This document shows, piece after piece, positions 1,079-62,436 of a DNA stretch of 64,000 nucleotides. The notes beneath the pieces are model-generated. The model was not told the DNA's origin. It saw only the letters and a program-made list of their open reading frames with translations, and did no database searches. A program made the translations under genes and the position numbers. The first letter of the stretch is position 1; each line of letters opens with the position of its first letter. Source of the stretch: Isoperla grammatica (taxonomy: Eukaryota > Arthropoda > Insecta > Plecoptera > Perlodidae); the NCBI GenBank assembly GCA_945910005.1, contig OX246741.1:45732918-45796917 (forward strand), in the 5' to 3' direction.

Positions 1079-4000
1079 ATTGAATTGAATTGAATTTATT
1101 GTGGTTTTCTCGCCCGGAGGCGAGAAGGCCGATAAAGGCCCACAACACGGCCCTCTGCAGCCTAATACACAAATACAAAGACAGATACAGAGACTAATAA
1201 AACAAGGGCAGAGCCGAAACAGATACAGGACAAATTCAAAGACAAATGCTAACAAAAAAAATACACACAGAGCAAACACAAAGACAACGTCTAAATGGAA
1301 ATTAAGGGATAAACGCAAAGACAAGTCAAATCACGCAAAACAAACACAAACACAAGTCCAGATGGGAATTCAGTTGGATGCACAAACACATGTCCAGAGA
1401 TGTCACAAGAGCAGACACAAACACAAGGAAACACAAAATTTAAAAAAACAAAAAAAACAAACACAAACACTTGTCCAGATGGACATGTCACAGGCGAGCG
1501 CACAACACACGAACACACGAACAGTCAGCACAGCACTCCGCGTCCTCTGGCTCGACGCCCTGGAGGCCCCCGCGGTCGAGGTCACCGCGGCCCGGCAACC
1601 CCGGTCAAGTAGTCAGCATGTTGAGGGTACTAGAACCGCAGCCGACGATGGCCGTCGCCGGGGGCGTATAGCTGGTCCAGGAGGGCATCGCGGCCACGGG
1701 CTCGGAGGCGGGCGACGTAAGCGATGGTGAGGGCAGTGAGGAGGTCGGACAAGGGCGGGACCTTGGTGAGCGCGTACACGTCCTCGTTGCGCGTCCAGGG
1801 GCGCAGCCGGGCAATTAGACGAAGGATGCGGCGCTCCAGGGAGAGGTACTGCAGACAGTGCCGACCAAGTACGGGCGAGAGGGCAGCAGCGGCGTGCTCA
1901 AAGAGCGGGCGGAGGAACACCTGGGTGGTATGCCGGAGTGTACGGAAACTGCAGCCACGAAAGCGCCCACGAATCAGCACGAGCAGATTCATCCGCTGCC
2001 TCGCACGCAGACACACATTCCGCGTGTGCGCCCCCCAGTCCAGAGTGGGGGAGAAGGTCACACCAAGGTACTTGGCTGTGGCGGAGACTAAGACGGGCAC
2101 ACTCCATAGCGAGATAGAGCGACGAAAGGGCCTCTGGGACAGCTTTTGGGCCTTGTGTCGGTGCCGAAACAGTAAAAGTTGTGTTTTGGAGGCATTGGGC
2201 AGCACCCGCCAGCGAGACATCCAGCGTTGGAGGGCCGCGAGCAGGCGCTGTAGGGCACGGAACGCCCCGGCCGCGGAACGGTGGGAGCACCAGTACGCCG
2301 TGTCGTCAGAGTACAGGCCAACGGAGCCACCCCGGGAGAGAGGTACTGGTATATAAATGCAGTAAAGGAGGTACAGCAACGGAGAAAGGCAGGAACCTTG
2401 AGGGACGCCGGCGCGAATAGGGAACGGAGCCGAGAGATGGCCATCGACTCGAACCCGCGCCGTGCGGCTGGTGAGAAAGGAACGAATTAGGCGGACCATG
2501 ATGAGGGGAACCCCGACCTGAAGGAGTTTGTAGACAAGGCCGTCGTGCCAGACCTTATCAAAAGCCCGAGAAATGTCGAGGAAGGCAGTCAGTACACAGT
2601 GACCTTTGTTAAGTGCGGTAGTAGCATCCGAGACAAGTCGAGCAACGGGATCAGTCACGCCGCGACCGGGGCGGAAGCCCGCCTGTTACTCCGGGAGGAT
2701 GCCAGCATGCTCAGCAAAGGCTGCCAGTCGAGTCTGAATTATTTTCTCCAGGGTCTTGCCAACGACGCTAAGAAGACTGATCGGGCGGAAACTAGCCGGA
2801 TCGGTGGCAGGCTGGCGTGGCTTGGGGATCATAACCACCACAGCCGAACGGAAACCTTCGGGAAAGTAGCCAAGACGGAGGCAACCGGTAAATAGGGACG
2901 CAAGGTGAACGAGGAAGGCAGAAGGTGCATTCAGCAGCATGAGCCGAGTGACGCCATCCCCTCCCGCCGCCGAATTCCGCCCCGACGACAGCGCACGTAC
3001 TGCATTGTAACCCGTGATCGGACTGACCAAGTCAGGAAAGGGAACGTCGTCGGACGGTAGGACAGAGTGGTTCGAAAGTGACGGCTCATACCTAGAGAGG
3101 CTTGTTTCAACGGAGTCGCGGAATGCAACATCGAAAAGCGGGTCTGTTGGGAAACGGTGTACGTCCTCCAACGAAGCCGCGAAGACGGCGGCCTTCTCGT
3201 CGCCGGTGGCGTAACGTCGTCGTTTACGACCAGCGGAGAGACGACTCGGGTTTGCTGGCCGGTGAGGCACTTGAACCGATGCCAGAACTTGGAACCCTGG
3301 CGGTAGTCAAGGGCCCCACAGGCAGCGATCCACGACTCCTCGCGGTGGGATGATATCCGACGCCGGATGAGGGTGTTGAGGCGGTTCCACTCCGTCTTCA
3401 ACGCAGGGTTGCGGGAGAACGTAAACTGGCGATAGACCCGACGTTTCTGTCGAATGAGGACCACGATGTCAGGAGAAAGGCGCCGGCGAGAGGTGTCTAC
3501 GTTTTTGAGAGGCACCGCCACAGCCACCGCCCTTTTTAACACAGCTACCAGCATGTTCATGTCCGATCGAATAGCAGCGCATGTAGAGGCATCGACACGC
3601 TCTGGCAGAAGACGAAGGACGGTGTGCCGGAAGGAGTTCCAGTCTGCAGACGAATAGTCCCTGACGGCCTTGTAGCGGGGCTGGGGTGGAGGGGGGTTAA
3701 CAGCGTCCGTGGAACACACGAGAGGGAGGTGGTCGCTGCCCACAGACGGGCCTATGGTGACGTCACTAAAATGGCCAGCAAGATTCTCACTAACTAGGAT
3801 GTGGTCCGGGATAGAAGCAACGTTGTAACCGATGAAGGTGGGGTTATCGTTGAACAGGCGGAAAAGGGGAAGGTCCACGAGCATGTCAGTAAACGCCATT
3901 AGCATTGGACCCCGTGTCCCCGAAGGACGCGTGACGTGCGTTGAAGTCTCCCATGAGGATGAACCGGGGAAAGGCAGCCACATACTCAATGAACGCAGCG

Positions 4001-4186
4001 AGGGAAGCCAGAGAATCGGAAGGCGGGACATAGACAACGGCCACTAAGATCGGGCCGAGTGGGGAATGCACAGAACACATAACGGCTTCATGATGCTGGA
4101 AACGGAGAGGGAGAGGAACAGGCACATACGGAACCTGGGGGTCAAGAAAAAGAGCGACCCCCCCGCGCGGTGGGATGCCAGGCGCA
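1079..4186 (-). mobile_element. Jockey-clade non-LTR retrotransposon (LINE), 5'-truncated
   Basis: The element reads on the minus strand. It starts inside an APE-type endonuclease and runs through reverse transcriptase to a 3' UTR that ends in a short (AATTC)n tail. Just before the tail the transcript would fold a CTCGCC/GGCGAG hairpin, like the 3' stem-loops that some LINE reverse transcriptases recognise. The other copy of the duplicated block has the empty site (CCAGCAAGGTAAAG near 44,166-44,178), which defines both junctions. A GCA is present on both sides, so the target duplication is very short or absent. The 3' UTR (about 1,100-1,500) is rich in ACA-type repeats. ORF1 and the start of the endonuclease are missing. 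Confidence 0.9.
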
Positions 4187-34805: not shown

Positions 34806-37800
34806 TCGTTTGTACGAGCCTGTATGTCCCCACACTTAGATATCAGGATAATCATGACCTAAATGTTACCGTAGTTACAAGCATTATGTAAGGCAGAACC
34901 ACCATCGGAGTCTTGGGTGTTAAAGAAGTCAAATAAATTTGCCATCCAACCTTACAGTGAGAGATCTAACGACATCCACATTGGCAAGATTATTCATACT
35001 CAGTGATGGAGCGGTGTTTGATCGTTGTTTGTACGAGCCTGTATGTCCCTGCCCTTAGATATGAGAATTAAGGAGCGCTCTGACATCAGTGTTATCGTGT
35101 TTATAAGCATAATCTAAGGCAGAACAATCATAGGAGTCTTGTGTGTTAATGTAGTCGGATAAAGATTCGCCCTCCAGCCTTACAATGAGAGATCCAACGG
35201 CATTCACACTGACATGTTCACTATTACACAGGATATGAAGCGGTGTTTGATCGTTCTTTGTACGAGCCTATATGTCCCCGCCCATAGATATGAGGAGTTC
35301 AATGATCTCAGAGTTACCGTTATCACAAACATAATGTAAGGCCGACCAACCATCGATGTCTTGGGTGTTAATGTAGTCAGATAAAGGTTTGCCCTCAAGC
35401 CTTACAATGAGAGAATTAACGGCATTCGCACTTGCATGTTCACTACCGGTACTAGGAAAACGCTCCGCGTTGCCAGATGAGCGATTTTTTTTAAGTAAAT
35501 CAAACATATCATTTGCATATCATATTACTCTTACAACAACAAAAATACATTTATGATACGCATGATTTTTCAAAAATATGGTGGTTCAAGTTACAACCTT
35601 AGAATTTGTGTATAGTATTTGTCGATATGTTTCTAATAACTGCACGAAATATTATTAAAATCCGTCAAGAATTAAAACCTTCAAGTTCATTTCAATGGAT
35701 TTCCGCATAATTTCATTCGACCGTGGTCTACTCAATAGGCTCTAATTCATAAACTCTTAAACCAATCAGTGCATGGAAAGTTCAATAATGTAGATACAGA
35801 CTATATCTAAAATATAATATTAATTTATCATACAATAACCCGCTTTTAAATCCTAATAAAAGCTTTTTAATTTGTCAACCAAGTTTTTTGTTAACATTTG
35901 CATTTTTGCCGTGAAAGTAATAAAACATAACACGTCATTGTAGCTATACTATGCTAGCTATCAAAATTCCAAATACATAGTGAGAAAGTTCTGACTGCGT
36001 AAGCCATTTCGGCAGCATACTATGTGCATCTTACTTCAATGGTCCGCAAATGCGAATCATATCGGTGGAACACTGTAAAAATGAAGACATTAACAGCCGT
36101 AAATAAACAATATTTTTTTATAACATGGCGGTTGAAGCTACAAGTTTGAAACAATTGTCAAGTGTTGGTATTATTGATGTGGACCCACGTATAAAAAATA
36201 ATTTATATCCGTTTGTAAGTTTTAATTAGATTAAATTAATAAAAAAAAAGGTTTATCATTAACTCATTTTTTGTAGGTTGGCATCTTACGTCATTGTAGC
36301 CTTTTTGTGACAGCTATCAAGATTCCAAATAAAAATGAGAAAGGTATGATTGCGTACGCTAATTTTGTGTTGACTATGTGCATCTTACTGAAAAGATCCG
36401 CTAATGCGACGATATCGGTGGAACACTGTAAAAATGAAAAAATTAGTACCGTAAATAAACAATATTTTTTTATGACATGACGGGTAAACTTACAAAATTG
36501 AAACTATTTTCAAGTGTTGAGACTATTAATGTTAACCTACAAGTGAAACATAATTTAAATCCGTGAGTAAGTTTTAATTTAATTAAATAAATAAACAAAT
36601 TTTTTTTTTCAGATGAAATTTTTTGTAGATTGGCATCCTGACGAATTTTTCTGGTTATGTTAACAGCATCTAGTTTAGTATTCACGGGTGTTGACCGAAA
36701 TTTTCAGCCAAATCCGTCAAGCCGTTTGACCTGTGCGCGACGAACAAAATTTGGCGAACACACACACACACACATACACACACACAGACAAAGCGCCGAT
36801 CGAGTTGTATGGAAGATTCACTCCGCTTCGCTACGCTCATCTAATCACACAGGACATGAAGCGGTGTTTCATCGTTCTTTGTACGAGCCTGTATGTCCCC
36901 GCCCTTAGATATGAGGAGTTCCATGACCTCAGTGTTACCGTTATCACAAGCATTATGTAAGGCTGACCAACCACCGTCGTCTTGAATGTTAATGTAGTCA
37001 GATAAAGGTTTGCCCTCCAGCCTTACAATAAGAGAATTAACGGCATTCAAACTTGCATGTTCACTATAACACAGTGTATGAAGCGGTGTTTGGTCGGTGT
37101 TTGTACGAGCCTGTATGTCTCCACCCTCAGATATGAGGAGTTCCATGACCTCAGTGTTACCGTTATCACAAGCACAATGTAAAGCCGACCTACCATCGAT
37201 GTCTTAGGTGTTAATGTAGTCAGATAAAGGTTTGCCCTCCAGCCTTACAATGAGAGAATTAACGGCAATTACACTTGCATGTTCACTATCACACAGAACA
37301 TGAAGCGGTGTTTCAACGTTCTTTGTACGAGCCTGTATGTCTCCCTTAGATATCAGGAGTTAAATGATCTCAGTTTTACCGTTATTACAAGCATAACGTT
37401 AGGCCGACCACCCATTGGAGTCTTGGATATTAATGTAGTCAGATAAAGGTTTGCCCTCCAGATTTACAATGAGAGAATGAACGGCATTCGCACTTGCATG
37501 TTCACTATCACACAGTATTTGGAGCGGTGTATCATCGTTCCTATTACGAGCCTGTATGTCCCCGCCCTTAGGTATGAAGAGGTTTATGATCTCAGTGTTA
37601 CGGTATTTACAAGCAAAATTTAAGACCGACCAACCATTGGAGTCGTTTGTGTTAATGTGGTCCGATAAAGGTTTGCCCTCCAGCCTAACAATGAGAGAAT
37701 AAACGGCAATTACACTTGCATGTTCACTATAACACAGTGTATGAAGCGGTGTTTTATCGTTCTTTGAACGAACCTGTATGTCTCCGCCCTTAGATATGAG

Positions 37801-37885
37801 GAGTTAAATGATCTCAATTTTACCGTTATTACAAGCAGAATGTAAGGCCGACCACCCATAGGAGTCTTGGATGTTAATGTAGGCC
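34806..37885 (-). pseudogene. Decayed continuation of the ankyrin-repeat array
   Basis: The same 222-bp ankyrin double unit as in the NACHT gene continues past its stop codon. Markers equivalent to GAGCCTGTATGTC (+ strand) recur near 37,777, 37,553, 37,333, 37,108 and 36,889, then after an insertion at 35,266, 35,030 and 34,818. Translation on the minus strand gives recognisable pieces such as GWSALHNACDNGNTEVMELL (37,146-36,841) and GWSALHYVCDNGNSEIIELL (35,507-35,268). Stops and small indels interrupt every unit or two. Either the gene once had at least eleven units and was truncated, or some pieces remain as spliced exons. Without transcripts the former seems likelier. Confidence 0.85.
35446..36844. 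mobile_element. 1.4-kb insertion inside the ankyrin array with ~355-bp internal tandem repeats
   Basis: Neighbouring ankyrin units read TTCACTATCACACAG without a break, but here TTCACTA (ending 35,445) and TCACACAG (from 36,845) are 1.4 kb apart. The insertion therefore lies precisely between A and T and its right end reads CTAA, as in Helitrons. A 5' TC and a clear terminal hairpin are not evident. Inside are two to three direct repeats of about 355 bp (near 35,575, 35,931 and 36,290) sharing CATTGTAGC, GGTGGAACACTGTAAAAATGA and AAACAATATTTTTTTAT. The right part (36,680-36,840) has a CCAAATCCGTC...ACACAC...CAGACAAAG tail reminiscent of RTE-type LINE 3' ends, then CCGCTTCGCTACGCTC. Confidence 0.65.
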
Positions 37886-40800
37886 CTACTCCAATAAAGA
37901 TTCGTCCTCCAGCCTTACGATGAGAGCCTTAACAGTATCTACACTGGCATGCTTACTCATACTCAGTATATGAAGCGGTGTTTGATTGCTGATTGTACGA
38001 GCCTGTATGTCCCCGCCCTTAGATATGAGGAGTTCCATGACCTCAGTGTTACCGTTATTACAAGCATAATGTAAGGCCGACCAACCATTGAAGTCCTTTG
38101 TGTTAATGTATTCAGATAAAGGTTTGCCCTCCAGCCTTACGATGAGAGCCTTAACGGTATCCACACTGGCATGGTTACTCATACTCAGTATATGAAGCGG
38201 TGTTTGATTGCTGATTGTACGAGCCTGTATGTCCCCGCCCTTAGATATGAGGAGTTCCATGACCTCAGTGTTACCGTTTTCACAAGAACAATGTAAGGCC
38301 GACAAACCATGGGAGTCTTTTGTGTTAATGTAGTCAGATAAAGGTTTGCCCTCCAGCCTTACAATGAGAGACCTAACGGCATTATCACTTGCATATACAC
38401 TTTTACACAGGATATGAAGCGGTGTTTGATTGTTGTTTGTACGAGCCTGTATGTCTCCACCTTTGGATACGAGTAACGTTATGGCTTGTGTGATGTTTTT
38501 AGTCATCTTGGCAGCGAGGTGTAGTGCAGAATCCCCAATTATGTCTCGTGCGTTGATGTATTTAGCAACCGTTTCTCTAACACGCTCAAGAGTTGAAACC
38601 GGGGATTGACAAGAAGTCGATACCTCGTGCGATGGTGGAGATTGCGAGTTGATTTCGGAAATGAGTGCTTCCATATTTTTTACTAGATGTTTAGCGTCTT
38701 TCACCATGTCATGTTTATAAGCGATGTGCAACCAGGTACCTGATGATGGCATTGTATTATTGTTTCCGAGAACACGCAACAGACGTTTTTTTGTCGATCT
38801 CATTTTGTTGATATTATTGTCGTCACGTTCTATTGGCCACTGCGCATGTAAGAGTTCGAAGGCTTGCCAAGACTCACTGTGGCTAGCGTACTCCAGCGCA
38901 TTCAAGCCCAATACTTTGTCGTCCTGGTAAAATGTCGCCTTGTGCTTCAATAGAACCTGCACCATGCTTGGAATGTCCGTGCGTATCCTAGCGTCCCTGT
39001 CTGCCGCTGCCAGATGCAATGCGGTGCGACCGCCCAGGTCTGTGACGTTGACGTCTTCCTTCCCTGCAGACAACAATGACGTCACCGTCTGTAGATCCTG
39101 GTTGACCACAGCCGTGAGCAGCTCGGAGTTCCTTGCAAGCATCAGGTCCACAAGTCGGCGAATCAATTTGAATTCATCACTTAACAAGATCTTTCGAAGG
39201 AAAACTTTGTTTTTTGCGTAATTCTGAGATAACCATAGTGCTGCGAAATATTCCGCGAAGGCTCTGTGTAAGAAGATTGGTTTACCATTAACAATGTTTG
39301 TAATAATACCGGCCCTGTATGCATAGGTGCTTATGTCGTCCAGTATCTCCACTTGTTGCGCTTTGATTTTTAGACTGTTGTGTAACTCCTCAACGTCGAA
39401 CAGAAGTATGATGGAAGCCCGCATATGGCATTTGGAAAAGTTTTTTAAAGCAATATTTTCTTCATAGGTATTATCATATAGTTTGCTCAAACCTATTTTA
39501 TCTAAATAAATTTTAAATTTCTTGGACACAACCTGTTCAAACATTGTGACAATATCGAGTTTGTCAGGTACATCAGCTGTTGTTTTTTGTACTTTAAAGT
39601 AATCCGAGTAAACCTCCGCCACCATCATTGTCAAAAGTGGTGTTCCCATGAATTCTCTGCCAATGTCATCTAAAGAATACGCTATTAAATTTATTAGTTT
39701 TTTTATAGGTTCTTCCAGTTGATAGTTTGTTGTTGAGGTTGTTATATCTTTTTTCCAAAATTTCTTAAAGAATATTATTTGATCTTCTTCACTGAATTTT
39801 CTTATAGTGAAAGTGAGCGTTTGTAAGTGTGATTCCAAGCGATGTTTAAGTGCGTGCCGTGATGTTATGTAAATCTTGCATGTTGTAGTTTTGAGCAAGC
39901 TAGTGATCAAGGACATAGCCCTTTCTGTGTAATTTGGCGCTACCTCGTCCACACCGTCGAGAAACAACACGCACTTCCCCTTCCCCATCATGAATCGAAA
40001 TAAACCACCCTCCAATTTAGTCTCTCTGATGTTAACAGCCAAAGACAAAAACTTGACAGCGTCATCACTAAACTGGTTTAGGTTCTCGATGTGATCCTTC
40101 AGGTCGACTCGGATGACCCAGTGCAAAGGATGGGCCTTCTTGGTCTCCCTGGCGAGGTGGGTGACGAATGTACTCTTCCCCATTCCGGCCTCGGCACAGA
40201 TGATAATCACTCTACCTTCCAGGTCGAGTGCGGTGCTGGGATTGTACAGGGTCGGATTTTCTTCTTTTATGAATTCGTTGATAATATCAACGCTGCCTCT
40301 AGTGTTCAACCACTCGAGATTTCCTTCGGAACACATCCTAAGCTCATGCAAGTTACCTTTATGTTTAACCGCATTCCTGATATTCTCGTTGGTACATTCC
40401 GATCCTACCACGAAGTGGCGACAAGGAGAGTCCCTACTGAAGTCTGTAAAATAAGCAACCTTTGCCTCTGCTGGAACTAATTTCTGCAAATCCTGCGCCG
40501 TTATATTACGTACGAAGTACTTATCTGAGTTATTTGCTTTAAGAATGTCTTTGTTTAACCGCGTTCGCCTCTCCAGAGTTCGAGGAATGTAGTAAGAAAT
40601 TGGCTCCTCGAGTAGAGGTCCAAGCAACACGAATCCTGTGGAGAAGCATTTCTTGACTAAATCATCATTTAAAACATCAGAAACTAAATCAGTACCCTTC
40701 TGCAGCAGGTCCCTCATTTTAACTATTTTATCTTGGAATAAAACGTCAGTGTCTTCCAACTGTACTTGACATTCGGTGTCTAGGTGTGATATCGTAATCG

Positions 40801-42094
40801 TGTCTTGAATCTCACAACACTCAACAGATTTACGCATACGTTTCTTTAGATTTGCTGTAAATGCATCATTCGAAGCAGACACAATGATAATTTTTTTTTT
40901 ACAGTCGTTCTCGAATTGTTGACTTAAAGTTGTGCACATTGCTTGATGCTCATCACTGGAGTCACTGACGATCACCAGCCTCTTGTTCCTATTTCGTCTC
41001 CATTTCGACATCCAGTCATCGGGTTCTTTCAATAAAGAATCCAAATCAAGAACGTTTGTTTCATGGTCATTTACTTTCTGAAACGAATGCACGAGTTTTG
41101 TGCAACAAAGTTTTATGCACGATGGCAAGGGACTAATATGCACAAGGCTATACTTATCAATGTTTTTTATATCGAAAAGATGTTCATCCTGAAAATGTAT
41201 GCTGTTTATATAGAATCGTTTTACATCTTGCGTTGCGAGTGAGGTTATTCGGAAATCATTTAATATTTGATCCAATAGGTCGCTGTCTTTAGTTAAACTC
41301 GTCTTACTCTTACGCCACCATTGACTGATTGAGTGTATGTAACTCTGACATAATTGGTCAATATCCGGGTTAACCATGGGATAACACATCGACAGTTCAC
41401 TTTTGATAAGTTCTGTCATTTGCTCGAAGGAGGCTTGCCTAGTTAACAATATGCAGGCATCCATAAAATCTTTGACATCCTCAACGTCATCGTGCTCACT
41501 CGTTAGATGTTCAAAGATATCTTCATCGCAATTTTCTTTGTAATTAAAACTAAATATTAACCCTGTCTGTAGGTTTGACTTGAAAAAGGTGTCTATTTTG
41601 CTACTGTCGAAAAGTGTCTTACGCTCCTCAACTCTTTTGGACAAATCATTATGCGTTTTCGCGTTAGTGTACAAACAAAATGTACTGTTTTGTATTGTAC
41701 AGCCTTCGAATAAGGATTGGCTGGAAGCGTTTTTTATTAGCTCCTTTATTTCAACGTATGATTTTAAGTATTTCCTTAGTGAGAAGTCATGTTTACCCTT
41801 TAGTTGATCAATACCAAGCATGGCAGAATCCAAGTGCTTCAACTGAATGTAGCACGTCTGCCACACATGGGGATTGTCCTCGGTCTTAAACTTCACAAAC
41901 ACGTCGTCCCAGGCCCCAACCTTGTCCACATTTGACGCCAGGTGGAACTCGGTGACGATCTTGCTGTTCTTGAGACGCAAGAATAGTAAAGCGAGGAATC
42001 TTATTTCAAACTTTGTTCCTGATTCTGTTGCGCGACCCGTTTTGTTATCGTAGGTGTTCGGGGTTACAGCGGCGACGCTAGAAAATAAAACCAT
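37886..42094 (-). CDS. NACHT/STAND NTPase with PD-(D/E)XK nuclease-like N-terminus and ankyrin repeats
   Basis: This is an uninterrupted frame of 1,402 residues. Residues 26-90 resemble a Cap4-like (DUF4297-type) PD-(D/E)XK nuclease: E49, then GAWDDVFV with D63/D64, then YIQLKH with Q84-x-K86. Residues 370-410 (RLVIVSDSS...KIIIVSAS) look like a Rossmann-type segment. The NACHT module has Walker A AEAGMGKST (K640), Walker B LFLDGVDE (D713, D716, E717), the YITSR sensor (742-746) and the distal FLHRAFAEYFAA motif (941-952). Ankyrin repeats fill about 990-1,400, the last in 74-residue double units. STAND proteins oligomerise when their repeat domain binds a trigger, so a cytoplasmic defence or stress sensor is inferred, not shown. 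The last unit diverges and stops at 37,886 where a small indel shifts the frame, so the C-terminus may be truncated. The listed ATG lies within intron-like sequence: TTTTCTAG just after it is a good splice acceptor, so the true exon may start at 42,077. Confidence 0.88.
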   Translation of the reverse strand: MVLFSSVAAVTPNTYDNKTGRATESGTKFEIRFLALLFLRLKNSKIVTEFHLASNVDKVGAWDDVFVKFKTEDNPHVWQTCYIQLKHLDSAMLGIDQLKGKHDFSLRKYLKSYVEIKELIKNASSQSLFEGCTIQNSTFCLYTNAKTHNDLSKRVEERKTLFDSSKIDTFFKSNLQTGLIFSFNYKENCDEDIFEHLTSEHDDVEDVKDFMDACILLTRQASFEQMTELIKSELSMCYPMVNPDIDQLCQSYIHSISQWWRKSKTSLTKDSDLLDQILNDFRITSLATQDVKRFYINSIHFQDEHLFDIKNIDKYSLVHISPLPSCIKLCCTKLVHSFQKVNDHETNVLDLDSLLKEPDDWMSKWRRNRNKRLVIVSDSSDEHQAMCTTLSQQFENDCKKKIIIVSASNDAFTANLKKRMRKSVECCEIQDTITISHLDTECQVQLEDTDVLFQDKIVKMRDLLQKGTDLVSDVLNDDLVKKCFSTGFVLLGPLLEEPISYYIPRTLERRTRLNKDILKANNSDKYFVRNITAQDLQKLVPAEAKVAYFTDFSRDSPCRHFVVGSECTNENIRNAVKHKGNLHELRMCSEGNLEWLNTRGSVDIINEFIKEENPTLYNPSTALDLEGRVIIICAEAGMGKSTFVTHLARETKKAHPLHWVIRVDLKDHIENLNQFSDDAVKFLSLAVNIRETKLEGGLFRFMMGKGKCVLFLDGVDEVAPNYTERAMSLITSLLKTTTCKIYITSRHALKHRLESHLQTLTFTIRKFSEEDQIIFFKKFWKKDITTSTTNYQLEEPIKKLINLIAYSLDDIGREFMGTPLLTMMVAEVYSDYFKVQKTTADVPDKLDIVTMFEQVVSKKFKIYLDKIGLSKLYDNTYEENIALKNFSKCHMRASIILLFDVEELHNSLKIKAQQVEILDDISTYAYRAGIITNIVNGKPIFLHRAFAEYFAALWLSQNYAKNKVFLRKILLSDEFKLIRRLVDLMLARNSELLTAVVNQDLQTVTSLLSAGKEDVNVTDLGGRTALHLAAADRDARIRTDIPSMVQVLLKHKATFYQDDKVLGLNALEYASHSESWQAFELLHAQWPIERDDNNINKMRSTKKRLLRVLGNNNTMPSSGTWLHIAYKHDMVKDAKHLVKNMEALISEINSQSPPSHEVSTSCQSPVSTLERVRETVAKYINARDIIGDSALHLAAKMTKNITQAITLLVSKGGDIQARTNNNQTPLHILCKSVYASDNAVRSLIVRLEGKPLSDYINTKDSHGLSALHCSCENGNTEVMELLISKGGDIQARTISNQTPLHILSMSNHASVDTVKALIVRLEGKPLSEYINTKDFNGWSALHYACNNGNTEVMELLISKGGDIQARTISNQTPLHILSMSKHASVDTVKALIVRLEDESLLE
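42077..42094 (-). promoter_or_regulatory. Candidate splice acceptor at the 5' edge of the NACHT exon
   Basis: On the minus strand the first bases of the frame read ATGGTTTTATTTTCTAG before CGTCGCC. A T-rich tract ending in CTAG is a typical metazoan 3' splice site. If used, the apparent start codon is intronic, and the protein gains a different N-terminus from an upstream exon that I could not identify. Confidence 0.5.
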
Positions 42095-43039: not shown

Positions 43040-43710
43040 CCACAACTCCTTCCTGTGGTGTAGCCGCAATGTTTGATACCGGGAGGGGTGAACAACAACA
43101 ATCACAACTCAGTACTGTGTTGTGGCCGCCATGTTTGATGCCGGGAGAAGCGAACAACAACAACCTCTTCTTACCCATGTGTTGTAGCCGCCAAGTTTAA
43201 TGACCGTTGTTTTGTAGCTGCAATGTTTAATGATCTTTGTTTTGTGACTGCAAAGTTTAATGATCGTTGTTTTGTGGCCGCCATGTTTAAGTTTAACGAT
43301 CTTTGTTTTGTAGCCGCCATGATAAGTGATCTTTGTTTTCTGGCCGCCATGTTAAATAATCATTGTTTTGTGACTGCAAAAATGAATGATCGTTGTTTTG
43401 TGGCCGCCATGTTTAATGATCTTTGTTTTGTAGTCGCCATGTTAAATAATCGTTGTTTTGTGGCCGCCATGTTTAATAATCTTAGTTTTGTAGCCGCCAT
43501 GTTTAATGATCGTTGTTTTGTGGCCGCCATGTTTAATGATCGTTGTTTTGTGACCGCCATGTATAATGATGGTGGTTTTGTCGCCGTCATGTTTAATGCC
43601 AAGAGGGGCGAACAACAACAACCACTACTCACCCATGTGTTGTGGCCGCCATGTTTAATGACCCATGTGTTGTGGCCGCCATGTGTTATGCCGGGAGGGG
43701 CGAACAACCC
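43040..43710. repeat. 30-bp / 62-bp minisatellite with YY1/Pho-like motifs (copy 2 array)
   Basis: The outer units resemble the 62-bp repeat at 1-650. The central part (about 43,190-43,590) has amplified a 30-bp version, ATGTTTAATGAT(C/G)(T/G)TTGTTTTGTGGCCGCC and variants. Because 30 is a multiple of three, it keeps a 183-codon frame open that reads as repeated MFNDRCFVAA. That frame is most simply a repeat artefact. Every unit bears GCCGCCATGTT. Confidence 0.85.
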
Positions 43711-57725: not shown

Positions 57726-58680
57726 ATGGTGGGTATGACGGTGGCTCCTAGCATGTTCCGCCCTGGTGTCGAGGATGCGGAGGAATAGATTGAGCGTTAC
57801 GAGACAGCGGCAGGAGCCAGTGGGTGGTCGGAGGAACGGATGGTGGTTGGTTTTCCCTGTTTTTTGGAGGGATCTGAATTAAAGTGGTTTCGCACTTTCG
57901 ATCGACGACGACGAGCAGAGTTAACGGGCGACCCGCCTGAACCTCGGCCACTTGTCTGGGCCTCACTGAAAGATCTTTTTCTAAGGACTTTCGGGGTTGG
58001 TATGGGGGCTCCACATTACTGGGCCACGAAGCTCGCTAACCGAGTACAGCAGCCGGGGGAGAGTGTTCGGTCGTATGTCTTTGCCAAAGCTGATATGTGT
58101 GACAAGGTGGATGTAGGGATGACTAAGGAGTTTCGGGTTCATTGGGTTAGGGGTGGTTTGCGTCGGGATATGTATGAGTGTGTGATTGGGCGCACATTTC
58201 CTGATTTGGACAGTTTGCTGGCTCATTTAGTGGAGTTTGAGATGTGTCGGAGTGGGGAGTTGCCTTGTGGTCAGCCTGGGAGTTCAGGGGTGAATGGGGG
58301 TGGTCAACTAGTGGCCTCGGTCTCGTCATCTCAGGACCTGGGTCTTCGGGTGGTTATGGATATGATTCGTGACATGGGCGAACAACTGCAGACGTTACAG
58401 GAGCGTGTGGTCAAGGGGGGGTCGTCGGCCTCCCCTTACAGCGCGCAGATGGGGGATTTGGCTGACATGCTGCGAACTCTGTCGACTAAGGTGGAGTCTT
58501 CTGCAGGGGGGGTGTTACCTGCCGCTGCGGCGGCGACACAGCTGCTTCTTCGGTGGGGTCTGGGGGGAGGTTTTCTGCTCATAGTCGGTCTCGGTGGCGG
58601 CAGAGGTGTCGTAGGCGCTGTTGGGTGTGTGGGAGTGTCAGGCATTTGAAAACGAGTTGTCATCTTAAGGGTGCGCGGGT
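57726..58680 (+). pseudogene. Gypsy gag (capsid and zinc knuckle), broken
   Basis: Gag would form the particle that packages the element's RNA. The frame opens at ATG 57,726 and is stopped by TAG at 57,786-57,788 where a Trp would be expected. It then continues in the same frame with a Ty3-type capsid N-terminal pattern (SGWSEERMVVGFPCFLEGSE, later FLRTFGVG) to about 58,550. A shift near the G-run at about 58,560 moves to the frame that carries a perfect CX2CX4HX4C zinc knuckle (CWVCGSVRHLKTSC, 58,619-58,660). The shift could be a programmed gag-pol site or simple decay. The premature stop makes this copy defective. Confidence 0.8.
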
Positions 58681-60190
58681 GCGGCTCGCTCATAGGAATC
58701 GCCATTTAGAATTGTTTCCCCAACTGTACGCATCTATTCTCCAGGGTTCTGGGGGGGAAACGCGACCCTCTATGTCCATAGATGGTGTGAATGCTTCTGG
58801 TGAGGTGTCCAGGGGTGCGGAGGGGGATGTGGCTGCGGGGCTGAGCGAAGCTGGGTGGCCAGACAGTGTTGAGGTGGTAGTTATTCCCGCCTTTGGTGCG
58901 TTGCGAATACCTGTCGAGTTGGAAGGGGTTGTTTTGAGTTCCCTCGTTGATTCGGGGGCCGGGGTGTCCTGTGTTAATACGGATTGGGTGCGACATATGG
59001 ATCTTAACCCCGTCGAGGGGTTGGTCTTGCGTACGGCGGACAATTCGTCCCTGCGGGTAGTTGGCCGGGTGGAGGACGTTCGACTTTCTATTGGGGGTCG
59101 GGCCTTATCTCTGTCATTTATTGTTGTGGATGGATTGGCTGTCGATTGTTTGTTAGAGAATGATTTCTGTCGCGAGTATGCTGTAATAATTGATTCTCAG
59201 TCGGAGCGCGTGGTGCTTCACGTGGGTAATGAATGTGTACAGGTACCGTTTGGGGATGGTTCACCCTGTGTTTTGGCCAGGGAGGAGGAAGGGTTGTGTG
59301 GTTTCCTGTCACATATTTAGGGTTGCGAGGAGGAAAACGGGCGGGTACTTGTGGCTAAGGAGGTTACTCTTGAGCCGGGTCGGACTGGTATGGTTGAATT
59401 TGTTGTTTCGTGGGCCGGGCTGGCGGGCGCTAATGTTTTCGAGCCAGTTAGTTCTCTATTATGTAAACGCGGCTTGATCATGCCTTCTGTGTTGTTATCT
59501 GGTATGAGCGCGGGCGTCTTGCCTATCGCGAATGTCACTACACAGCCGGTACGGCTGTTTACTCGGTCAGCGTTGGGCACAGTGGAAGAGGTGGAAGTTC
59601 TACGGAGCGAGTCAGGGGTGGACAAAGTGCAGGACATCCCGGTCTGTGGACTGGAGTGACACGACACGCTTAGGGATGTTTCACCTGACATAGCGTCTCA
59701 CAATGTGAATAAGGATATGCCAGCGGGGGCGCGTCAGCCCTTGCTGGATTTGCTTGCGCGTTATCATGACGTGTTTGCGTGGTCCTCAGACCTGATAGGT
59801 GGCTGTAACGTGGGAAAGTGTGATATTGAGCTCAAGGATCCCACTTCTGTTCACATGCAGCCCTATTGGGTCAGCCCGGGGGAGCGCGAAATCATACGAG
59901 AGCATATTGATGACATGTTAAAAGCGGGGGTGATTACTCCTTCCCAGTCTGAATGGGCATCCCCTATAGTGTTGGTTAAGAAAAAGAATGGGAAAATAAG
60001 GGTAGTGGTTGATTTCAGGCGTCTTAATCTCCAACTGAAGACGTTTAGTTATCCAAGCGCGAATGCGGAGGACCTGTTGGCGTGTTTGACTGGGTGTACG
60101 GTGTTTACATCCCTTGATTTGGCTTCGGGGTTTTGGCAGCTTCCGTTAACATCGAAGCAAAGGAGATATGTAGTTTTGCATGTTGCATGG
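58661..60190 (+). pseudogene. Gypsy protease and N-terminal reverse transcriptase, broken
   Basis: A single frame runs from the zinc knuckle to about 60,180 with in-frame stops at 59,318 (TAG) and 59,657 (TGA). The retropepsin has LVDSGAGVSC (active-site Asp near 58,949) and LLENDFC, where family members usually have Gly before the final acidic residue. The linker EVTLEPGRTGMVEF is typical of Gypsy elements. The reverse transcriptase starts near 59,705 with WASPIVLVKKKNGKIRVVVD and FTSLDLASGFWQLP. Near 60,180 the homology jumps to another frame, which continues into the YLDD box. Protease releases mature proteins and reverse transcriptase copies the RNA. Both are inactivated here as read. Confidence 0.85.
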
Positions 60191-62436
60191 GTTTGTTCAA
60201 GTTTGAAGTTTTACCTTTCGGGATATCGACTGCTCCAGCTTTGTTTCAGGCTGCGATGGACAAGGTTCTAGCAGGGTTAAAGTGGTCGGCGTGTGTGTGT
60301 TATCTTGATGACGTCCTGTGCATGGGGAGGGATTTTACGGAACATCTGGCGCGATTAGAGTTGATGTTACAACGGTTTCGTGCGGCCCATCTCACTCTTA
60401 ATCCTGAGAAGTGTTCGTTTGGATATGATAGGGTTAGGATGTTGGGACATGTTGTGAGTGCGGAGGGGGTGGCTCCCAATCCAGAGACGGTGCAGGCGGT
60501 GTTGGACTTTCCGGTTCCACGGAAACTCAAGCAGGTGCGGTCGTTTGTTGGGCTGGCCTCGTTCTATCGTAAGTTCATTGAGAACTTTTGTAGATTTTGT
60601 GTACCCCTGACTGACTTGACGAAGAAGCAAGTCAAGTTCATTTGGGGTCCAGAGCAAGAGAGCGCTTTCCGTACGTTGCAGGACAAGCTTCTCTCAGCCC
60701 CTATTTTGAGGCATTTCTCCGATTCTGCGCCTACGCAGTTGCGTACTGATGCTTCGAAGGAGGGGTTGGAGGCGGTCATTCTACAACAGTTTGACTCCGA
60801 GTGGCACCCTATTGGTTATGCGTCGAGAAGGTTAACAAAAGCAGAAGCTAATTATGGGGTGACTGAGCTGGAATGCTTGGCTATCGTATGGGCAGTTAAA
60901 TATTTCCGTCATTTTTTGTGGGGACGGCCATTTCAGGTCGTTACCGATCACTGCGCGTTGTGTTTCTTACGGAAGAACTGCGAACGAGGTGGTCGGTTGG
61001 CGAGGTGGAGTATCTATCTGCTGGATCATCAGATTGAAATCATCTATAAATCGAGGAAAAAACATCTGGATGCGGATTGTATGAGTCGTTTATTACCGGT
61101 GGGTGGTTCTGAGCCGGATGATGTGGAAAGTGATATGGAGATAATGACGTTGCCAGTAACAGTAGAGGATATCGCCCAGTCACAGAGAGGGGATGATGCT
61201 TTGGCAGAGCTGATGGACGCTATGACTGATACTGAGGGTGCTACTTCGGAAGTTCGTCGGCAAACGAGGAGTTATGTTTTGGAGAATGGGGTGTTGTACA
61301 GGAAACATTTTTCTGTTCCCGGCCCTAGTAAGTTGTTGGTTATCCCTGAAAATCTGAAGGTTCAAGTTTTGTATGATGCTCATGATAGTCCGGCGGGTGG
61401 TTCGCATTTGGGATACATCAAGACGTTCGGTAAGCTGCGTCAGCGATTTTATTGGGATGGAATGGCTAGGGAGGTGGACGCTTATGTGAGAAGCTGTGGG
61501 GATTGTCAGGCTAGGAAAGTGCCCAATTTGTTGCCCGCGGGTTTACTACAGCCTATACCGGTGGGGGAACCATTTGATATGATCGGTATCGATCTCTTGG
61601 GTCCTCTTAAGCGTAGTATTGGCGGTCATCGCTTCATTGTAACGGCCACCGACTATGCTACGAAGTGGGCTATAGCTCGCCCTATTCCGTCTGGGGGTGG
61701 GACAGATGTGGCTATATTCCTTGTTGATAATTTGATTTGCGTGCATTCTTGTCCCCGAATGATTTTGAGTGACCGGGGGGCTGTGTTTCTCGGGGCTCTC
61801 GTGTCGGAGATTTTGAGGGGCTTGGGTGTTCGTTCCCTTTACACCACCGCCTATAAGCCTAGCACTAACGGCCTCTGTGAACGGTTTAACGGCACGCTCG
61901 CTACCATGTTGTCTTTCTATGTTAACTCTAAGCATGACAATTGGTGTGAGTATGTGTCGTTGTGTACATTCTCTTACAATGTGTCTATTCAAGCTACGAC
62001 CAAGTACACGCCGTTTTATTTGGTATACGGGCGTGAGCCTACGTTGCCGTTGGATGCTGGCTTGGACCTGGATTTGCAGATGGGGGTTGATAGCGCTGAG
62101 AGGGTGGAGGCTCTACGGGAAGCGAAGCGGCTAGTGTTAGATGTTATTAAGGCTGAACAAGCTGTTCAGAAGGATAGATATGACAAAGGGCGTCGTCATG
62201 TGTCGTATGACGTGGGACAGTATGTGAAAGTGTTTTTTTCCTTACGGAAAGTGGGCCAAGTCGAAAAGTTTATGCATCGTTGGTTAGGTCCTTTCAAAAT
62301 TGTGTCAAAATTGTCTGATTTGAATTATGTAGTTAAATTAAAATTAAATAATAAATGGGTTGATGACACTGTCCACGTTTCGCGCTTGAAGCCCTGGTAC
62401 GATCCCGACGAATGGCGGTTGCCCTGGCCTGCTTGA
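60133..62436 (+). pseudogene. Gypsy reverse transcriptase (C-terminal part), RNase H and integrase
   Basis: This frame is open for 767 codons, but genuine homology begins about 17 codons in, after the frame jump. It carries the YLDD catalytic box (residues 57-60), FVGLASFYRKFI, RNase H acids D205, E246 and D272, the integrase zinc motif H417-X7-H425 with C455-X2-C458, and a complete DD35E triad (D487, D547, E583; NGLCERFNGTL). A GPY/F-type segment (LGPFKIVSKL) lies near the C-terminus. There is no chromodomain and no env follows. The catalytic residues are intact, so decay is recent or limited, but without a joined upstream frame the full polyprotein is not made. Confidence 0.9.

Follow-up and report, generated by a model that had tools for sequence, protein, structure and literature searches.

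We analysed a window of 64,000 nucleotides from the stonefly Isoperla grammatica (OX246741.1, positions 45,732,918 to 45,796,917), which lies within contig 9 (56.8 Mb) of a genome of 874 Mb. Its minus strand carries a single open frame of 1,402 residues, which starts with an ATG at position 42094 and ends with a TAG at 37886. The encoded protein consists of a front region in which a nuclease domain is predicted, a middle region, a NACHT domain and ankyrin repeats. The initial annotation of this DNA had placed a NACHT domain and ankyrin repeats behind the front region, and Pfam bore this out. We interpret the protein as a probable intracellular receptor of the kind known from bacterial defence.

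We modelled residues 1-350 with AlphaFold2. The model contained a predicted PD-(D/E)XK core (helix 24-43; strands 47-54, 65-71 and 79-86; helix 106-122; strand 137-143) together with a helical extension of the Cap4 type, at a mean predicted local distance difference test score (pLDDT) of 58. Further, we compared the model with solved structures by Foldseek. The best matches were the nuclease domains of Cap4, LmuA, Avs3 and HerA-DUF4297, with DNA-bound LmuA structures among them, while type II restriction enzymes scored far below these four. There was no viral fold match at E <= 0.001. It had been proposed from motifs that this region was a PD-(D/E)XK nuclease of the Cap4/DUF4297 type, with structure prediction as the check, and the predicted core and its nearest solved structures support that proposal.

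The motifs GAWDDV and QLK were found at residues 60-65 and 84-86, exactly where they had been annotated. In an alignment of the first 1,000 residues of 15 chosen family members, all with the lysine at position 86, E30, D63, D64, Q84 and K86 were invariant at a mean column identity of 26%. There were 10 invariant columns within residues 1-160, and four of the five sites named in advance as catalytic (E49, D63, D64, Q84 and K86) fell on them (p = 3.9e-5). With one lysine-less member included (alignment A1, 13 rows), three of the five were invariant (p = 0.0017). For alignments A1, A2, A3 and A7 we selected diverse members and did not take the whole family; A1 holds one of the seven lysine-less members (L033) and the other three hold none. 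D63, D64 and Q84 held up by alignment, and K86 did so except in one clade. E49 was rejected as an invariant catalytic acid: this position is often acidic and varies (14 E, 12 D, 5 R, 3 S, 1 H and 1 G among 36 copies with an aligned residue), and the first-helix acid that does not vary is E30. The window copy has the D...QxK arrangement, and a search of all six frames of the window for the pattern E-x(28-38)-DD-x(12-24)-QxK gave a single occurrence, in the front domain of this frame. D63, D64, Q84 and K86 were also kept in four relatives outside the genome, and the retention in relatives from two other insects agrees with what the annotation had expected of them.

Behind the nuclease-like domain we found a NACHT domain with Walker A, Walker B and a helical-third motif, followed by C-terminal ankyrin repeats, as expected of NACHT-bearing NOD-like receptors (NLRs) and of signal transduction ATPases with numerous domains (STAND). 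The helical-third motif closely resembles a NAIP-like consensus, FhHxxhQE[YF]hxA, which is given in PMC12258605. In the middle region Pfam listed a weak nSTAND_NTPase5 match at residues 343-411, below the cut-off (E 0.027). The model of residues 301-1050 was too poor for use (mean pLDDT 51, predicted TM-score, pTM, 0.28); its Foldseek list, in which AAA ATPases predominate and chains of Avs5 and Avs4 rank lower, is a hint only. The window copy is likely shortened, because its ankyrin array runs on past the stop with in-frame stops, and other frames on contig 9 reach up to 4,236 residues. This copy may thus be weak or dead, and it is the family as a whole that bears the finding. The features of the gene are listed in Table 1.

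Table 1. Features of the gene and of its continuation, in positions of the window
Feature	Residues	Position	Strand	Evidence or remark
Whole open frame		37886..42094	-	1,402 residues: Cap4-like nuclease domain, middle region, NACHT, ankyrin repeats
Predicted Cap4-like nuclease module	20-288	41231..42037	-	AlphaFold2 model; alignments to Cap4, LmuA, Avs3 and DUF4297 lie mostly inside these residues
Predicted PD-(D/E)XK core	20-150	41645..42037	-	AlphaFold2 model
E30, conserved first-helix acid	30	42005..42007	-	invariant in alignments A1, A2 and A3
D63-D64, predicted metal-binding acids	63-64	41903..41908	-	alignment conservation
Q84-L85-K86, predicted catalytic QxK	84-86	41837..41845	-	conservation; the set resembles D40/Q53/K55 of E. 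coli DUF4297 (PMC11291478, accessible part)
Strands alternating with helices; possibly a degenerate NTPase-like domain lacking Walker A (low confidence)	311-450	40745..41164	-	model, mean pLDDT 51
NACHT domain	628-781	39752..40213	-	Pfam, 33.7 bits (cut-off 26.7)
Walker A AEAGMGKST	634-642	40169..40195	-	sequence; G637, G639, K640 and T642 invariant
Walker B VLFLDGVDEV	709-718	39941..39970	-	sequence; D713, D716 and E717 invariant
FLHRAFAEYFAA	941-952	39239..39274	-	close to the NAIP-like helical-third motif
Ankyrin-repeat region	about 1000-1391	37922..39097	-	Pfam, repeats up to residue 1392
Decayed continuation of the ankyrin array past the stop		34809..37885	-	222-base units containing in-frame stops, with an interruption at ~35446-36846

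Upstream of the gene lies a satellite of about 14 copies of a 30-base unit (43178-43598; consensus TGTTTTGTGGCCGCCATGTTTAATGATCGT). The window also holds retrotransposon genes at 57840-62436, with gag, reverse transcriptase, RNase H and integrase domains, and on the minus strand at 1630-4037 a reverse transcriptase with a weak endonuclease-type match, resembling a long interspersed nuclear element. A scan for bacterial-type promoters gave a result no better than chance.

We wanted to know how far sequence profiles recognise the front domain. The PADLOC LmuA model matched four of 21 family members (L010, 9.5e-8; P0029, 1e-7; L036, 3.2e-7; L027, 7.9e-5), and the Effector/Endonuclease models, which we take to be of the type found in the cyclic-oligonucleotide-based anti-phage signalling system (CBASS), matched two of the 21 at E < 0.001 (L029, 2e-4; L044, 4e-4). 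In the window protein itself, Pfam listed nothing before residue 343. A search of the whole genome with the LmuA model gave no match and was uninformative, since the controls were equally silent. The Cap4/DUF4297-type match that had been foreseen was thus obtained from structure, and was missing from the Pfam and NCBIfam lists of the members scanned; on sequence, support for the nuclease identity is partial.

The gene belongs to a large family. A search of the genome for NACHT gave 73 matches in open frames of 590-4,236 residues, and a search with residues 1-342 gave at least 90 matches, densest on contig 9 at 44.9-51.8 Mb. After five rows judged to be second matches in one frame were subtracted, 85 frames carried the front domain, 60 of them of at least 1,000 residues and the rest including short decayed pieces; copies from unplaced contigs may be alternative versions of placed copies. 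Outside this genome, the front domain was found in the stick insect Bacillus rossius (P0002), in the cockroach Diploptera punctata (P0005 and P0029, fragments) and, with NACHT and ankyrin, in P0003 (JGI source). In the part of the list that we read, the other proteins were mostly ankyrin-bearing and apparently matched through their repeats. An unrooted tree of 40 rows placed the cockroach and stick-insect proteins among the paralogues of this genome; duplication within the family is therefore likely older than the separation of these insects. L017 and L036 were left out of the tree, long branches were flagged and the deep joins are unsure. No bacterial or viral donor was found, as one exact-word scan each of viral contigs and prokaryote genomes, with one protein, gave no close relative. 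TTAGG repeats were abundant (12,038 forward and 10,361 reverse, compared with 1,155 and 965 for a reversed control), some of them inside contigs; this abundance, together with the insect relatives, fits an arthropod.

In the cockroach protein P0029, a hydrophobic stretch followed by GGIEINPGP, a sequence characteristic of 2A ribosome-skipping peptides, lies at about residues 19-43, directly before the nuclease-like domain. We sought a 2A-like peptide in the fetched loci and the window and obtained six NPGP hits, none of them in the frame of the gene upstream of the domain. By eye, the D and K positions appear to be missing from the front region of the distant relative P0009 (ENA source, 2466 residues), which is perhaps a further pseudo-nuclease.

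We compared the ratio of nonsynonymous to synonymous substitution rates (dN/dS) between the parts of the protein. The nuclease had a median of 0.34 (13 copies), NACHT one of 0.32 and the ankyrin repeats one of 0.63 (12 copies each). In two recent clades it was 0.52 and 0.40 for NACHT and 0.89 and 0.96 for ankyrin; the ankyrin alignments were possibly out of register, which would inflate the ankyrin values.

Among known systems, Avs3, a bacterial STAND anti-phage receptor (PDB 8DGC), has the same order of nuclease, STAND NTPase and sensor. Its C-terminal sensor is TPR-like. The insect protein differs in that the NTPase is NACHT, the repeats are ankyrin and the gene is one of many copies on an animal chromosome; Pfam gave NACHT and ankyrin in place of Avs3's own NTPase and C-terminal sensor. 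By analogy, the protein may work like Avs3, and we do not classify it as Avs3. In contrast to CBASS Cap4 (PDB 7YIB), no SAVED model was among the Pfam or PADLOC matches of the full-length window protein; NACHT and ankyrin form the sensing part here. The single SAVED_PDDEXK match fell on the front end of L029 (2.4e-4, model positions 41-231 of 490). LmuA of Lamassu is linked to the family by the predicted nuclease fold and by the profile matches of four of 21 members. However, LmuA stands alone as a protein and acts together with the SMC-like LmuB, while the nuclease here is fused to NACHT and ankyrin. HerA-DUF4297 likewise has two components, one of them a HerA ATPase, and lacks both NACHT and ankyrin. 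Animal and fungal NACHT NLRs have in common with the insect protein the NACHT domain, the NAIP-like FxHxxxxEYFxA motif and the C-terminal repeats, whereas the N-terminal domain is here a predicted nuclease. In animal NLRs, death-fold domains are known at the N-terminus. For fungi, the accessible part of PMC12258605 lists HET-like, HeLo-like, patatin, PNP_UDP and other N-terminal domains and no nuclease.

We consider it probable that the gene encodes an Avs3-like intracellular receptor in an animal, in which a predicted Cap4-type DNA nuclease is joined to a NACHT switch and to ankyrin repeats, and which likely serves in immunity and would shred DNA once triggered. Briefly, the fast-changing ankyrin array would bind a foreign or damage-linked ligand. 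The NACHT module would then exchange nucleotide and the protein would oligomerise, since Walker A and Walker B are intact. Neighbouring nuclease domains would pair and cut double-stranded DNA through D63/D64, Q84, K86 and a metal ion, because assembly switches the nuclease on in Avs3 and DUF4297. In the end the DNA of the invader would be destroyed or the cell would die. According to PMC11291478, DUF4297-HerA is a nuclease of double-stranded DNA whose activity requires its PD-(D/E)xK residues (mutant D40A/Q53A/K55A), and it acts by abortive infection with degradation of host and phage DNA; the structures nearest to DUF4297 are the nuclease domains of Avs3 and Cap4, and Avs3 is switched on when target binding leads to tetramerisation, which places its nuclease domains next to one another. 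The insect protein has a D/Q/K set and a layout of the same kind, which suggests the same cycle of sensing, assembly, pairing and cutting. The selection pattern fits this cycle partly. Domain order, conservation of the motifs, copy number, the lysine-less clade and the selection pattern are observations, and the fold is a prediction.

Several observations weigh against this interpretation. The model of the front domain was built on five sequences (mean pLDDT 58, pTM 0.61), with residues 1-24 and 89-100 at pLDDT <50, and the Foldseek TM-scores were modest (0.32-0.45 over the query, 20 best). The region between nuclease and NACHT was modelled poorly, and the window copy is cut short in its repeats. 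For this copy, neither PADLOC nor Pfam nor NCBIfam gave a match to a Cap4-type model, and the Pfam and NCBIfam matches listed for the scanned members (one list giving 25 of 31 families) included no Cap4 family. When PDB sequences were searched with a profile of 13 front ends, no nuclease was found, and a profile of the core ranked Cap4 of E. cloacae first, through DD and QxK, at an E of 0.34 only. In the two recent clades the nuclease showed a mild constraint only (dN/dS 0.51 and 0.59), and the helical part after the nuclease core reached 0.78 in one clade. Finally, seven of 38 copies lack the lysine and have Y (four copies), G, N or C instead.

These seven copies (L012, L018, L024, L033, L034, L035 and L041) form a single clade with 100/100 support, and five of them lie in frames of at least 1,340 residues, which indicates that a lysine-less domain can be kept; L034 has D-E at positions 63-64. 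They fit a Cap4-type fold that no longer cuts and serves, in the manner of a pseudo-enzyme, as a platform for assembly or for nucleic-acid binding. We regard this as a rather unlikely account of the family, since 31 of the 38 copies keep D/D/Q/K, lysine 86 included, and the four outside relatives keep the set despite the low overall identity. The 38 copies comprise the window copy and 37 of the 40 loci L009-L048. L025 and L045 (unaligned) and L039 (domain outside its stretch) were left out, as were the frames L014_447, L024_1671, L041_824, L043_983 and L048_937, which hold no front domain. L017 and L036 were counted across two frames, with the DD part in a separate upstream frame, and E30 of L036 falls outside the fetched stretch. 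Some lysine-less genes (L012, L018 and L033), and likewise L025, have low-complexity stretches of the KETTKVD type.

PD-(D/E)XK folds are versatile, and an active enzyme might be directed at RNA or at a specific DNA structure instead of bulk double-stranded DNA. This is a doubtful alternative to the DNA-cutting receptor, as the relative DUF4297 is described in the accessible part of PMC11291478 as a promiscuous DNA nuclease on double-stranded DNA, and the matched LmuA structures include DNA-bound ones. Least likely of all is a mobile or selfish family of intronless, mostly decaying copies among transposons with no immune role: many copies do lie in single open frames, truncated and decayed ones among them, and the window bears transposons and a truncated copy, but constraint over all copies compared was strongest in the nuclease and NACHT parts, 60 of the 85 frames are long, L017 and L036 have the domain spread over two frames, as an intron would cause, and the placement of the cockroach and stick-insect relatives among the paralogues suggests an old family.

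The layout of effector, switch and sensor is already known; the new part is a Cap4-type effector on an animal NACHT-ankyrin protein. Among the matches listed in the open-licence literature, none describes an animal NLR that carries a Cap4-type nuclease, and prior notice in subscription papers or preprints is possible. Restriction endonuclease effectors are described in prokaryotic conflict systems, and the accessible part of the source names none in insects (PMC8195603).

In summary, the Avs3-like reading leads to a broader claim that we hold to be evenly poised: several old insect orders may own a large, fast-evolving arsenal of NLRs with an active bacterial-type Cap4 DNA nuclease, acting by Avs3-like abortive infection and predating the split of cockroaches and stick insects, with one branch of lysine-less pseudo-nucleases. 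Animal NLRs are known to signal through adaptor domains. Building a DNA-cutting effector into the receptor itself is the strategy of bacteria. If active, the domain would join animal innate immunity directly to the toolkit of Avs, CBASS and Lamassu, would provide these insects with an NLR arm, and would raise the question of how the cell keeps the nuclease off its own genome.

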